NCBI GenBank assembly: GCA_035310145.1
Contig: DATGEL010000083.1
Coordinates: 1-51,164, forward strand
Reading direction: 5' to 3'
DNA length: 51,164 nt
Source of the DNA: Dehalococcoidia bacterium
GTDB taxonomy: Bacteria > Chloroflexota > Dehalococcoidia > CAUJGQ01
The notes beneath the pieces were generated by a model. The model saw only the letters and a list, made by a program, of their open reading frames with translations. It was not told the DNA's origin and made no database searches. The first letter of the stretch is position 1; every line of letters begins with the position of its first letter. The position numbers were made by a program, and so were the translations under genes. Shown in pieces: positions 43,603 to 51,164 of this stretch.

Positions 43603-43752
43603 AAACGGGGCGGGGTGCAATTCCCCACCGGCGGTGACAGCCCGCGACCCTCCTGCTCAGCGCTGGGCGCATCGGCCCAGCCCGGAAACCGCGGGAGGCT
43701 GACCCGGCGCAACTCCGGGGCCGACGGTGACAGTCCGGATGGGAGAGAACGG
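43603..43752 (+). promoter_or_regulatory. FMN riboswitch (RFN element)
   Basis: The conserved RFN sequence is legible: GGGCGGGGTGCAATTCCCC, CACCGGCGGTGACAGCCCGC, then a variable hairpin, CCGGCGCAACTCCGG, and GGCCGACGGTGACAGTCCGG ending in GATGGGAGAGAACG. It binds FMN and lowers expression of the riboflavin gene 250 bases downstream (44001). The long leader between (43753-44000) must hold the expression platform. Confidence 0.93.
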
Positions 43753-44000: not shown

Positions 44001-45242
44001 GTGTACAGCGGACTCATCTCGGAACTCGGCATCGTGGAAACGGGGCGCGAAACGGAGGAAGGGCTCCTTCTGACCGTGCTCGCGCCGGAAACGGCGGCGC
44101 GGCTGCGGCCGATGGGCTCGGTCGCCGTCGCCGGCGCCTGCCTCACCGTGCTCGCCTGCGACGGCGAGCGCTTCGGCGTGCTCGTCGGCGCGGAGTCGGC
44201 GGCGCGTACGACGCTGCGGCCGCCGCTCGACGGCCGGCGCGTCAACCTCGAGCTGCCGCTACGCGCCGGCGACCCGCTCGACGGGCACCTGGTGCAGGGG
44301 CACGTGGACGGCATGGCGGCGGTCGTCTCGCGGCGGCGCGAGGGCGGCGTGGAGTACGTCTGGTTCCGGCCCAACAAGCGGTTGCTGCGGGCGATTGTGC
44401 CCAAGGGCTCCATTGCCGTGGACGGCGTCAGCCTCACCGTGGTGGAGATCAACAAGGGCGCCTTCTCCGTCGCCCTGATCCCGGAGACGTTGCGCCGCAC
44501 CACGCTGGCCGGCCTGCAGGCGGGCGATCGCGTGAACGTCGAAACCGATGTGCTGCCGAAATACGTGCAGCGCTTCGGCCACGCGCCGCGACCGGCGCTC
44601 GCCTGGGCGGGGTTGCGCCGCGGCCGCGAAGCCGTGGAGATGGCGATCGCCGCGATCGCGGCCGGCGGAAAGGTGATCGTCTGGGATCCGGCGCGCGAGG
44701 GCGAGGGCGACGTGATCATGGCCGCCGATCGCGTCTCACCGGCCGACATCAACTTCATGATGACCCACGTGCGCGGCCTGCTCTGTACGCCGATGGACGC
44801 GGCGCTGCTGGCGCGGCTGGGCATCGAGCGCATGCCCGGCGCCGGCGATCACCACGGCACCGCCTTCATGGTGACCGTGGACGCGGCCGAAGGCACCACG
44901 ACCGGTATTCCCGCCAGCGAACGGGCGCACACGCTGCGGCTGCTCGCCAGCCCCGCCGCGCGGCCCGAGTCGTTCGTGCGGCCGGGGCACGTCTTTCCGC
45001 TGGCGGCGCATCCGCGCGGGCTGGCGGCGCGCCAGGGTCACACCGAGGCAGCCGTAGCGCTGGCACGCTGGGCGGGACGCCCTCCCGTGGCGCTCTGCTG
45101 CGAAGTCGCCGCCGCCGACGGCGAGATGGCGCGGCTGCCGGAGCTGGAGTGGTTCGCCGCCGAGCACGGCCTGCCGCTGGTCGCCATCGAAGACCTGGTC
45201 GAGTACGCCCGCGCCGAGGCAGGCGCCGCCGCCCTCGGCTGA
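44001..45242 (+). CDS. ribE-ribB: Fusion: riboflavin synthase alpha (RibE) + 3,4-dihydroxybutanone-4-P synthase (RibB)
   Basis: 413 residues. RibE fills 1-197 with two lumazine-binding repeats (GHLVQGHVDGM and KGSIAVDGVSLTV). RibB fills 205-413: WDPAREGEGDVIMAADRVSP is the variant of the DDEDRENEGD loop, then THVRGLLCTPM, HHGTAFMVTVDAAEG, RPGHVFPLAAHPRG and GHTEAAVALARWAG. RibB makes the four-carbon unit from ribulose-5-phosphate; RibE makes riboflavin from two lumazines. No stop separates them. GTG 44001 has GGGAGG seven bases upstream. Controlled by the FMN riboswitch. RibB has Ala and Gly where the loop usually has acids, so activity of that half should be verified. Confidence 0.9.
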   Translation: MYSGLISELGIVETGRETEEGLLLTVLAPETAARLRPMGSVAVAGACLTVLACDGERFGVLVGAESAARTTLRPPLDGRRVNLELPLRAGDPLDGHLVQGHVDGMAAVVSRRREGGVEYVWFRPNKRLLRAIVPKGSIAVDGVSLTVVEINKGAFSVALIPETLRRTTLAGLQAGDRVNVETDVLPKYVQRFGHAPRPALAWAGLRRGREAVEMAIAAIAAGGKVIVWDPAREGEGDVIMAADRVSPADINFMMTHVRGLLCTPMDAALLARLGIERMPGAGDHHGTAFMVTVDAAEGTTTGIPASERAHTLRLLASPAARPESFVRPGHVFPLAAHPRGLAARQGHTEAAVALARWAGRPPVALCCEVAAADGEMARLPELEWFAAEHGLPLVAIEDLVEYARAEAGAAALG

Positions 45243-47559: not shown

Positions 47560-47782
47560 GGGCGATCGCGCCCCCGCGGCGCGCTCCCGCAGACCGGCGG
47601 ACGATTCGGTAAAGTCCGCCGCCAGCGACTCGATATCTGCTTCAGCGGTGGATTGGCAGCATCCTGTCTGCCCGTCAAAGTATCAATTCAGTAACGCCAA
47701 TACGGAAACTGATACAGCTATCGATCCATTACCTGGCTACGCGTGAAGCCGCCGGGGGCGGCGCCCATTTCAAAGCGCATCG

Positions 47783-47869
47783 ATAAAGGCACACCCGGCG
47801 AAAGCCGGGGCCGCAAAGCCATGGGCCTTCCCTCCCGCCGGCGCGGGGGCACGGTTGCCAGGCCGCCGA
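47783..47869 (+). promoter_or_regulatory. Class-I cyclic-di-GMP riboswitch (GEMM-I)
   Basis: The aptamer signature is readable: GGCACACCCGGCGAAAGCCG with the GAAA tetraloop stem, CCGCAAAGCCATGGGCCTTC, the second stem GCCGGCGCGGGGGC, and ACGGTTGCCAGGCCGCC as the closing strand. The GCAAAGCC block and the following GGCC match the GEMM-I consensus. It ends 30 bases before GTG 47899. It should sense c-di-GMP and control the secreted protein and HD-GYP operon. The upstream gap 47560-47782 holds no gene I can support. Confidence 0.8.
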
Positions 47870-47898
47870 ACGCGATCGCTTTCGTGGAGGTAGCCCTG

Positions 47899-48369
47899 GT
47901 GTTTCGTATTGCTTCGGTCCTCGCCGTCGCCCTCGTGGCCGCCGGCATCGCCGCCGCCGCGCCGCACGGGCACGCCCGGGCGTTTGAAGCCTGGTGCTCC
48001 GACGACCCGGTCATCTCCGTCAACGGCAACCTGGTCGATCTGCAGGTGCAGATGCCCGTCACGAACCTGCTGACGATGCGCACGACCACGCTCACGATCG
48101 TGGTCCCGCGTAACGTCGGCGGCGCCGTCGTCGTGGACGATATCAGCGCCTTCCCCATGCACACGACCATCTCGGCCACCGGCCCGAAGTGGAGCGGTCA
48201 CGGCGCGGTGCCGATCACGATCGACGCCTACGTGAGCGCCTCCAGCTCCTACACCACGCAGGTGGTGGCCACGCCGGTGCTGAATGTCTCCAACCTGCTG
48301 GGCTCGCCGTCGAGCACGTCTGGCTGGACGAACAGCCTCATTGCGCTGCAGATAAGCGTGGGCCGTTAA
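47899..48369 (+). CDS. Small secreted protein under c-di-GMP riboswitch control
   Basis: 156 residues from GTG 47899, with GGAGG eight bases upstream. Residues 1-28 form a signal peptide (RIASVLAVALVAAGIAAAAPH). The mature part is all-beta, rich in Thr, Ser and Val, with repeats of VQMPVTNLL, TLTIVVPRNV and ITIDAYVSASSSY. One Cys near the mature N-terminus. No family recognised; an adhesin, sheath or matrix protein is plausible because GEMM-I riboswitches often control such proteins, but this is inference. The longer frame upstream runs through the riboswitch and is rejected. Confidence 0.7.
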   Translation: MFRIASVLAVALVAAGIAAAAPHGHARAFEAWCSDDPVISVNGNLVDLQVQMPVTNLLTMRTTTLTIVVPRNVGGAVVVDDISAFPMHTTISATGPKWSGHGAVPITIDAYVSASSSYTTQVVATPVLNVSNLLGSPSSTSGWTNSLIALQISVGR

Positions 48370-48370
48370 G

Positions 48371-49702
48371 GTGGCGTCCGCACCCTCGCGCCGTCCTGGT
48401 CCGCCGCCGCGCGTGCGTGTCTACGTCTGCGCGGTGATCGCCCTGGCCCTGCTGCTCGCGCCGGCGAGCGGCTGGCTGGGGGCAGCGTGGCGGCTCGAGG
48501 CCTGGCCGGAGGCGGCGCTGCTGGCCGCGCTGCTCGCCGTGGCCCACCGGCAGCGGGTGCAGATCGGCCTCCATCGCACACTGAACGTCGGCACAGCGCC
48601 CGAGGTCGCCGCTGTGCTGCTGCTGCCCGGTCCGCTCGCCCTGCTGGCGCTCGTCGCCGGCACGGCGGCGGGCGAACGGCGCGGGCCGCTGATCCAGCGC
48701 TCGTTCAACATCGCCGTGGCAACCCTGCGCGCCCTCGCCGGCCTCGGCGCCTACGCCGCCCTACGCCGCGCAGGTCCCACGGCGATCGGCGACCCACTTG
48801 CCTCGCTGACGGCGCCGGTGGCGATGTATGTCTCCGGCACGGCGCTGGTGCTCAGCGTCGCCGCCGTGCAACTGCGCGAGAACCCGCTGCGCCGCGCCTG
48901 GGCGATGCCGCACGACACGCTCGTGGCCGAGGCGGCGCTCGCCCTGGTCGGGATCATGGCCGCCTTCGCTTCATCGGGCCACCCCTGGACGCTGCCGCTG
49001 CTGGTGGTGCCGGCGGCGCTGGCGCAACGCGCCCTGCGCGACGGCGTGGCGCTGCGGGCGCAGACGCGGCTGGCGCTCGAAGACCTGGCCGACGTGGTCG
49101 ACATGCGCGACCACTACACGTTCGAGCACTCCCGCCGCGTGGCCGAGCTGGCCCGCGCCACCGCCCGCCAACTGCGCCTGCCCGCCGACGAGGTAGAGCT
49201 GATCACGATGGCCGGGCGCGTACACGACGTCGGCAAGATCGGGATCAAGTCCACGGTACTGATGAAGCCGGGCGGGCTGAGCGAGCGCGAGTTCGCCGAG
49301 ATGCGCTCGCACCCCGTCGTCGGCGCACGGCTGATCGGCAACTTCCCGCAGTTTGCCCGCGGCCGCGCTTACGTGCTGCACCATCACGAGCGCTTCGACG
49401 GCAAGGGCTATCCTGAAAAGCTCGCCGGCGAGCAGATCCCTTTCGGCGCCCGCGTGCTGGCCGTGGCTGACGCCTGGGATGCGATGACCTCGCACCGGGC
49501 CTACCGCCAGGCGCTGCCGATGGCGCGCGTCTACGCCGAGCTGGAGCGCGGGCGCGGCGCCCAGTTCGATCCGGCCGTGCTGGACGCCTTCCTCCAGGCG
49601 CTGCGCGAGCGGCCCGACCTGGCCGCGGCGCACACCGCGGAACCGCAGGACGTGGACGTGGCCGAAACACCGTCCGCGGCCGTGGCGGAACACGTGGCGT
49701 AG
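48371..49702 (+). CDS. Membrane HD-GYP c-di-GMP phosphodiesterase
   Basis: 443 residues. Residues 1-230 hold about six membrane helices forming a sensor or anchor region. The HD-GYP domain begins near 243: DMRDHYTFEHSRRVAELARA, the HD pair in GRVHDVGKIGIKS, HHHERFDGKGYPEKL with the GYP motif, and VADAWDAMTSHRAYRQ. These enzymes hydrolyse c-di-GMP to GMP with a di-iron or similar centre. GTG 48371 starts two bases after the stop of the secreted gene, so both are one unit below the riboswitch. This suggests feedback: high c-di-GMP alters production of its own hydrolase. Confidence 0.9.
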   Translation: MASAPSRRPGPPPRVRVYVCAVIALALLLAPASGWLGAAWRLEAWPEAALLAALLAVAHRQRVQIGLHRTLNVGTAPEVAAVLLLPGPLALLALVAGTAAGERRGPLIQRSFNIAVATLRALAGLGAYAALRRAGPTAIGDPLASLTAPVAMYVSGTALVLSVAAVQLRENPLRRAWAMPHDTLVAEAALALVGIMAAFASSGHPWTLPLLVVPAALAQRALRDGVALRAQTRLALEDLADVVDMRDHYTFEHSRRVAELARATARQLRLPADEVELITMAGRVHDVGKIGIKSTVLMKPGGLSEREFAEMRSHPVVGARLIGNFPQFARGRAYVLHHHERFDGKGYPEKLAGEQIPFGARVLAVADAWDAMTSHRAYRQALPMARVYAELERGRGAQFDPAVLDAFLQALRERPDLAAAHTAEPQDVDVAETPSAAVAEHVA

Positions 49703-50098
49703 CCCGCGCGGCCGTTCTTCCACGCCGGGCCGCGACCCCTTGTACCCCTTCCCTCGACGCCACCGCCGCGCCCGCCTGCCGAACCGGCAGCCGCCTGCCG
49801 TCTGCGTCTGCCTGCCGCCGGGCCGAAGCCAGGCTTCCGCGCGCCGCGACGGTGCTCCGCCGCCCCTGGTCAGCGGACAAAGTGATACAAAATTGCCTCG
49901 ATTGTTTCTGTAACGCTTAACTTTGCGAGTCGTTGTAGTGGGGCATCAGCCCTGCGGCCTGCCGTGCCCTGGGGCGCGCCATAGCCGGCCGTCGAGACAG
50001 GAGGTGGCGAAACCGGAGACGATCCCGCTCCGCGCCCGCCGGGCCGGGCGCACCGCCGTGGTACCCGCTCGAACACTGTTCGTCCTCGGGAGGATGCT
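49703..50098. other. Non-coding gap with an AT-rich patch
   Basis: No gene is supported. A short CTGCCG-AAC-CGGCAG hairpin near 49777-49793 lies after the HD-GYP gene. An AT-richer stretch at 49880-49925 (AAGTGATACAAAATTGCC onward) probably holds the promoter of the gene at 50099; I cannot assign the exact hexamers. The remainder is GC-rich leader. Confidence 0.4.
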
Positions 50099-51164
50099 AT
50101 GCGTTTGGTCCGTATCGGCGCGCTCGCCGCCTTCGCCGCGATCCTGCCGTTATTCGGCGGCTTCGCCGGGCGCACGGCCGCCAGTTCGCCCTCACCGCAC
50201 TTCACGCTCAACTGCAGCCGCGGCAATCCGCTCTGCACCGAAGTCCAGGACGCCGAGGCGGTCTTCGGCGAAGATCAGTACGTCGGCCACGACGAGCCAT
50301 CGCTGCTCTTCTATTCGAACACGGCCGGCTCCGGCAACTCGAACCTCTACCACATGACACTGCCGACGGATCCGCCCGTGCTGCCGAAGCAGGACGGCAG
50401 CGGCGGCACCTTCAACTTCCAGTTGCGGCCGGCCTTCTGGTTCGGCATGGCGATGTGCGACACGCAGTCGTTCCCGGAGCAGGTTTCGACCTGCACGCCG
50501 GACAGCGACAGCAACATCGTCGATCCGGCGGTGAGCGCCGCACATCCGGGCGTGGCCTTCATGGAGATGCAGTTCTACCCGCCCGGCTGGGTGCTGTGGC
50601 CGCCCGGCGCCAGTTGCGACGCGACCAAGTGGTGCGCGGCGCTGAACATCGACAGCCTGTCGGAGAATCCCGTCAGCGGGCAGTTCCTGAACCCGACCTG
50701 CCAGGCGCAGGCCGGTCTCGAGTACGTCAACTTCGCCTTCATCACCAAGAACGGCGTGGCGCAGGCGCCGGCGAACCCGGTGAATTCGACGCTCGCGACG
50801 TTCACGCCCGACCCGGCTAAAGACCTGTTCATGGACAGCGGTGACGAGCTGACGGTAGACATGCACGACACCGCCAACGGCTTCACCGTGATCATCCACG
50901 ACCTGACCTCGGGCCAGAGTGGCTCGATGACCGCGAGCGGGGCCAACAGCTTCGGCCAGGTGAAGTTCGCCCCGACGGGCACGTCGTGCGTCAACATCCC
51001 CTACAACTTCCACCCGATGTACGCCACCTCCAGCGAGGCGACGCGCGTAACCTGGGCGGCGCATTCCTACAACATCGCCTTCTCCGACGAGATCGGCCAT
51101 TTCGCCTACTGTGCCAACGTGAACGCGGCGACGGGCGCCTGCGGGTCGTCCCCGGAAAGTGACG
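50099..51164 (+). CDS. Secreted protein of unknown function, incomplete at window end
   Basis: The frame from ATG 50099 (GGGAGG six bases upstream) stays open to the last base, at least 355 residues. Residues 1-32 form a signal peptide (MRLVRIGALAAFAAILPLFG). The mature part is Cys-, Trp- and Phe-rich with beta-strand character: LNCSRGNPLCTEVQD, FYSNTAGSGNSNLYHMTLP, FMEMQFYPPGWVLWPPGASC, DTANGFTVIIHDLTSGQSGSMTAS and SFGQVKFAP. Several Cys likely form disulfides after export. I do not recognise the family; the DTANGF-IHDLTSG block resembles a surface-exposed beta-sandwich of carbohydrate-binding type, but nothing catalytic is seen. Confidence 0.65.
   Translation, partial: MRLVRIGALAAFAAILPLFGGFAGRTAASSPSPHFTLNCSRGNPLCTEVQDAEAVFGEDQYVGHDEPSLLFYSNTAGSGNSNLYHMTLPTDPPVLPKQDGSGGTFNFQLRPAFWFGMAMCDTQSFPEQVSTCTPDSDSNIVDPAVSAAHPGVAFMEMQFYPPGWVLWPPGASCDATKWCAALNIDSLSENPVSGQFLNPTCQAQAGLEYVNFAFITKNGVAQAPANPVNSTLATFTPDPAKDLFMDSGDELTVDMHDTANGFTVIIHDLTSGQSGSMTASGANSFGQVKFAPTGTSCVNIPYNFHPMYATSSEATRVTWAAHSYNIAFSDEIGHFAYCANVNAATGACGSSPESD

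Follow-up and report, generated by a model that had tools for sequence, protein, structure and literature searches.

The window, that is, the whole 51,164-nt stretch of Dehalococcoidia DNA analysed here, belongs to a genome of 5.32 Mb in 148 contigs (G000). A cmscan covariance search of the whole window detected two RNA families, an FMN riboswitch and c-di-GMP-I-GGC. The latter, RF03167, was found at 47779-47871 on the plus strand with 68.2 bits (gathering score 59, E 4.2e-14), and the classical model RF01051 c-di-GMP-I gave 65.9 bits at 47778-47870 (gathering score 35). Neither model had a match across 14 control genomes. The aptamer is followed by a short leader and two genes, with the features listed here:

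47779..47871, plus strand: c-di-GMP class I (GEMM-I) riboswitch aptamer (cmscan with both Rfam models; alignment letters)
47872..47898, plus strand: leader of 27 nt with a Shine-Dalgarno-like GGAGG at 47886-47890 (sequence, by eye)
47899..48369, plus strand: small exported all-beta protein of 156 aa, WCxDDP family (family alignment, AlphaFold2)
48371..49057, plus strand: helical membrane domain at the N terminus of the HD-GYP protein; MASE9-like, with an S-component-like predicted fold (profile A4, VIA-align)
49085..49579, plus strand: HD-GYP domain, predicted c-di-GMP phosphodiesterase (Pfam HD_5, solved relatives, alignment A3)

The small-protein gene starts with GTG at 47899 and has its stop codon at 48367-48369, and the second gene runs from a GTG at 48371 to 49702, encoding 443 aa, so that one base separates the two. 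An earlier note on this DNA had described a GEMM-I-like aptamer followed by two closely spaced genes, for an exported beta protein and an HD-GYP enzyme. This layout is borne out by scores above the gathering threshold with both covariance models, by the AlphaFold2 model of the first product and by the intact HD-GYP domain of the second; two details needed correction, namely the aptamer start (47779 by cmscan, not 47783) and the gap between stop and start (one base, not two). The FMN riboswitch, at 43603-43748, is unrelated to the c-di-GMP module and is located ahead of a gene at 44001 that by eye resembles a riboflavin-synthesis gene.

The top Rfam label of the aptamer is the c-di-GMP-I-GGC variant, and its contact letters are the ordinary c-di-GMP ones. 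The cmscan alignment and a script both give G, A and C at positions 20, 47 and 92 (Vc2 numbering), which are described as contact residues of the reference aptamer (PMC4744006). The consensus lines of RF03167 and RF01051 differ at position 47 (CGCGAA versus CGCAAA), and the window has CGCAAA. G in place of A at this position is the trait of the GGC variant as read from the two Rfam consensus lines, which, rather than the defining paper, are also our source for what "GGC" stands for; it is absent from the window aptamer. With this diagnostic letter missing, the GGC label was ruled out as a sign of another ligand. A is the letter at this position in every one of the 52 aptamers examined: in the 50 over the cut-off by a pattern match, and at L110 and L158 by eye. 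Because G20, A47 and C92 are all present, and because A47 is found in all 52, the window aptamer is treated as an ordinary c-di-GMP aptamer that is predicted to bind c-di-GMP.

The aptamer resembles known c-di-GMP-I riboswitches (RF01051/RF03167) in its structure, its tetraloop and its contact letters, and has in common with them downstream genes for the envelope and c-di-GMP turnover. Unlike them, it precedes a two-gene module of an exported protein and a membrane HD-GYP protein, and its leader is very short, with no promoter or terminator found in it. The GGAGG is partly paired in both the free and the aptamer-enforced foldings, the folding energy of the leader is no better than that of shuffles (z 0.68), and clear switching was not seen in the leader foldings. 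Control is probably exerted at the level of translation, and binding of c-di-GMP would most likely alter access to the ribosome site just 3' of the aptamer. As to direction, our guess leans slightly towards an ON switch, in which the ligand would raise translation, hence negative feedback. By eye, the DNA 5' of the aptamer (47675-47715) and that 5' of the next exported protein at 50099 (49880-49925) have GATACA and TGTAACG-like letters in common, perhaps the site of a common regulator.

The AlphaFold2 model of the small protein (pLDDT 89.1, pTM 0.74) consists of a signal-like N-terminal helix (residues 2-20) followed almost only by strands. No match was found in Pfam or NCBIfam, and comparison with solved structures gave no clear fold family (best Foldseek E 0.32). 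A dehydrogenase domain was rejected as its fold, with a best VIA-align Z of only 5.1 (rmsd 3.4, 97 residues), as was a beta/gamma-crystallin identity, for which sequence matches had E of 0.57 or worse. The WCxDDP motif is encoded at 47992-48009, and relatives are highly divergent (17-26% to the window member in the 15-member alignment A2). On sequence grounds, the small protein is a member of a new family marked by this motif. It had been called unrecognised, which holds for Pfam and NCBIfam. The gene pair to which it belongs recurs across the Chloroflexota.

The HD-GYP domain matches Pfam HD_5 at 8.6e-35, with the HD, HHHE and GYP motifs intact (VHDVGK and HHHERFDGKGYP), and the protein is predicted to be an active c-di-GMP phosphodiesterase. 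It has the HD-GYP domain and its conserved motifs in common with the phosphodiesterases 4mcw, 4r8z, 9rbz and 5z7c, and differs from them in the integral membrane S-component-like sensor in front. Pfam MASE9 (PF20972) did not match the window's own membrane domain; it was matched at E<=0.1 by 7 of the 14 members of alignment A4, and four paired relatives passed its cut-off of 24.3 bits (L074 25.6, L155 31.6, L183 30.5, L184 38.1). The predicted structure of the window domain was aligned by VIA-align with the S-components of ECF transporters for vitamins and metals at Z 10.6-13.9 over 151-187 residues, the top row being 4hzu_S (Z 13.9, rmsd 3.6, 159 residues) and the others lying at Z 10.6-13.8. 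Foldseek gave probabilities of up to 0.98 for S-components but E-values of 0.4 and up, and for this reason the S-component fold of the domain is graded as likely.

The S-component fold is common to the 5TMR sensor kinases and is thus known in receptors (PMC11109136). As described there, those receptors carry a similar predicted membrane fold on varied outputs, including GGDEF/EAL and histidine kinase. The window-type domains differ in being MASE9-like by Pfam, in having HD-GYP among their outputs and in being preceded by the gene of a small exported protein. The terms "HD-GYP", "MASE", "partner" and "periplasmic" are absent from the text of PMC11109136. The openly accessible literature on MASE9 contained nothing pertinent.

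Among 60 relatives, homologues of the window small protein were found only in G001, in four copies; an HD-GYP gene follows three of them immediately, and a contig end truncates the fourth. A profile of these four and the window protein detected 14 places in 10 of 294 genomes of the class, and a 15-member profile detected 40 places in 28 of 400 genomes of the phylum, 33 of which were inspected. A scan of named genomes with the small protein gave six places, two new, one in a Thermomicrobiales MAG. By small-protein sequence alone, with one place lacking an ORF (L176) excluded, this amounts to 44 non-redundant places, three of which are cut downstream by contig ends (L068, L115, L187), leaving 41 evaluable. 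A gene with the same N-terminal membrane domain lies directly downstream in 36/41 and is missing at L116, L117, L160, L163 and L164. Three of these (L163, L164, L117) form a stand-alone branch of the family, with WC.DDP followed by TPAGN and no adjoining membrane gene.

Searches starting from the membrane domain or from HD-GYP added seven pairs, among them L074 and L075, which were spotted by eye from their FCEYDP motif; the totals are 51 places and 43 pairs. Searched in the other direction, 24 membrane-domain places came up at E<=1e-30. The small protein is encoded upstream at 17 of these, 15 of which were identified by profile or sequence search and two by eye. At the other seven no small protein was recognised upstream, two of them (L131, L132) having a short exported ORF that bears part of the motif. 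Short exported ORFs directly before MASE9-like membrane proteins were noted at L131, L132 and L129 (G025:C34, G037:C16, G019:C2), some with a WC..D motif remnant and a VSTDKGGxNxHK-like C-terminal end.

The outputs of the 43 partners are histidine kinase (22), HD-GYP (16) and GGDEF with or without EAL (4), one partner being too short to assign. Three of the 16 HD-GYP partners are degenerate (L066, L067, L112); degenerate HD motifs occur in two G001 copies and one G023 copy, with the small protein kept. The membrane domain is thus the constant element of the pairs and the outputs vary, and therefore the linkage follows the membrane domain and not the phosphodiesterase. The small protein is most likely an outside partner of the membrane sensor. 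Nothing on this protein pair was found in the openly accessible literature, in which the small protein cannot be looked up by name.

By cmscan, 4 of the 51 places have a c-di-GMP riboswitch ahead of the pair, each in a different family: the window (f1), G076 (f33, 76.8 bits), G023 (f23, 46.5 bits) and G308 (f98, 55.5 bits). In the same order, the distance from aptamer end to small-protein start is 27, 37, 78 and 19 nt, and the output, of c-di-GMP type in every case, is HD-GYP, HD-GYP, degenerate HD-GYP and PAS-GGDEF. Since cmscan found no Rfam riboswitch in the remaining 47 places (one of which, L173, has no upstream DNA), the two-gene module seems to be the older element and the riboswitch a later addition. 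It is absent from all 22 histidine-kinase pairs, and the contrast of 4/20 versus 0/22 gives a one-sided P of ~0.04, calculated by hand and ignoring relatedness.

Five c-di-GMP-I aptamers are present in the window genome. The genes after the other four encode a secreted GH26-like repeat protein, a secreted GH18-like protein, a Flp-type pilin and a CAP/YkwD-like exported protein, the GH26, GH18 and pilin labels being motifs read by eye. The genome has 13 GGDEF matches, and c-di-GMP is thus probably made in this organism. A GGDEF domain is encoded on the same contig at 7025-7486, minus strand, within a 780-aa open frame.

The best explanation of the locus, to which we assign a probability of about 0.6, is a riboswitch-controlled two-gene receptor module composed of the small protein and the membrane HD-GYP protein. 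Situated at the 5' start of the transcript, the c-di-GMP class I riboswitch would set the output of both genes. The first product, the small exported beta protein, would stay outside the membrane and partner the S-component-like (MASE9-like) domain through a presumed physical contact. The membrane domain would then relay a signal to the cytoplasmic HD-GYP domain, which would hydrolyse c-di-GMP. In this way c-di-GMP would govern the amount of a sensor-gated enzyme that degrades it, very probably tuning its own breakdown via this pair.

Other readings differ in the role of the small protein, the reach of the riboswitch or the ligand. The earlier note had c-di-GMP controlling both a surface product and its own breakdown. 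The second half agrees with an aptamer ahead of a tight pair that includes an HD-GYP gene, but another role is likelier than that of a surface product, as relatives adjoin a membrane sensor whatever its output. If the small protein were a biofilm surface or matrix product, co-regulated with the phosphodiesterase in the absence of any physical partnership, its export and all-beta fold would fit, as would the exported proteins encoded after other riboswitches of the same genome (GH26-like, GH18-like, CAP/YkwD, Flp-type pilin). Such a product would not, however, explain why the family adjoins membrane sensors of any output, most often histidine kinases, and we consider this reading unlikely.

It is more improbable that the aptamer regulates the small protein alone, with the HD-GYP gene translated independently or the two genes being mere neighbours. 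The HD-GYP gene does have its own start codon, but stop and start are one base apart and spacing is likewise tight or overlapping in many relatives; the pair is probably co-transcribed. Least probable of all, by a little, is another ligand, such as cGAMP or some unknown molecule hinted at by the GGC variant label. Apart from that label, which is Rfam's best, this reading could draw on the enzyme, whose closest sequence match among solved structures is an HD-GYP enzyme specific for cGAMP. A at position 20 is typical of cGAMP-type aptamers, whereas the window aptamer has G there; it also has A at the point where the GGC consensus (CGC-G-AA) departs from the classical one, as do all 52 aptamers examined. 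Two GEMM-I aptamers that do have A20 were seen by eye at L192 (G003:C134:9145-9233) and L210 (G027:C81:48388-48503), with prepilin-peptidase-like genes of the Tad/Flp pilus kind downstream, also by eye.

Neither the aptamer nor the enzyme of the proposed receptor module is of a new kind; the novelty lies in the small protein as a conserved, probable exported partner of a membrane sensor domain that has no known input. We tentatively suggest, at somewhat below even odds, that WCxDDP proteins and MASE9-like S-component-shaped domains constitute an unrecognised two-part receptor class. The beta protein would cap or load a vitamin-carrier-like domain that drives HD-GYP, GGDEF/EAL or histidine-kinase outputs, and the version acting on c-di-GMP would stand under a c-di-GMP riboswitch in at least four Chloroflexota families, closing the loop. 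A similar arrangement is described for DbfQ-DbfRS (PMC12714742), in which a small exported protein is encoded beside a membrane sensor and acts on it, with a link to biofilm and c-di-GMP, as proposed here. That system is a Vibrio histidine kinase system whose abstract does not mention a riboswitch, and it is likened to the present module by arrangement, not by small-protein sequence.

The frequency of such feedback was estimated in the 60-genome set, where 8 of 50 riboswitches over the cut-off precede an HD-GYP ORF that starts on the same strand within 3.1 kb downstream, some stretches ending sooner at contig ends. One of the eight places (G023) has a degenerate HD-GYP. The chance expectation, calculated by hand, is ~0.4/50 even with the densest HD-GYP count (12 in 2.2 Mb), and a riboswitch before an HD-GYP gene is thus recurrent in the class. 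Control of c-di-GMP breakdown genes by c-di-GMP riboswitches is called rare in a review (PMC6366702), and the earlier note had considered a feedback operon of this kind not common; within this class, feedback via a riboswitch before an HD-GYP gene is not exceptional. The window provides a specific instance, found several times over in this one class, in which c-di-GMP riboswitches appear to control c-di-GMP breakdown genes. A different gene order was noted at L078 and L079 (G051:C24, G017:C66), where a c-di-GMP riboswitch is followed by a sigma factor gene, sigma-28/WhiG-like by eye, and a MASE9-like HD-GYP gene.
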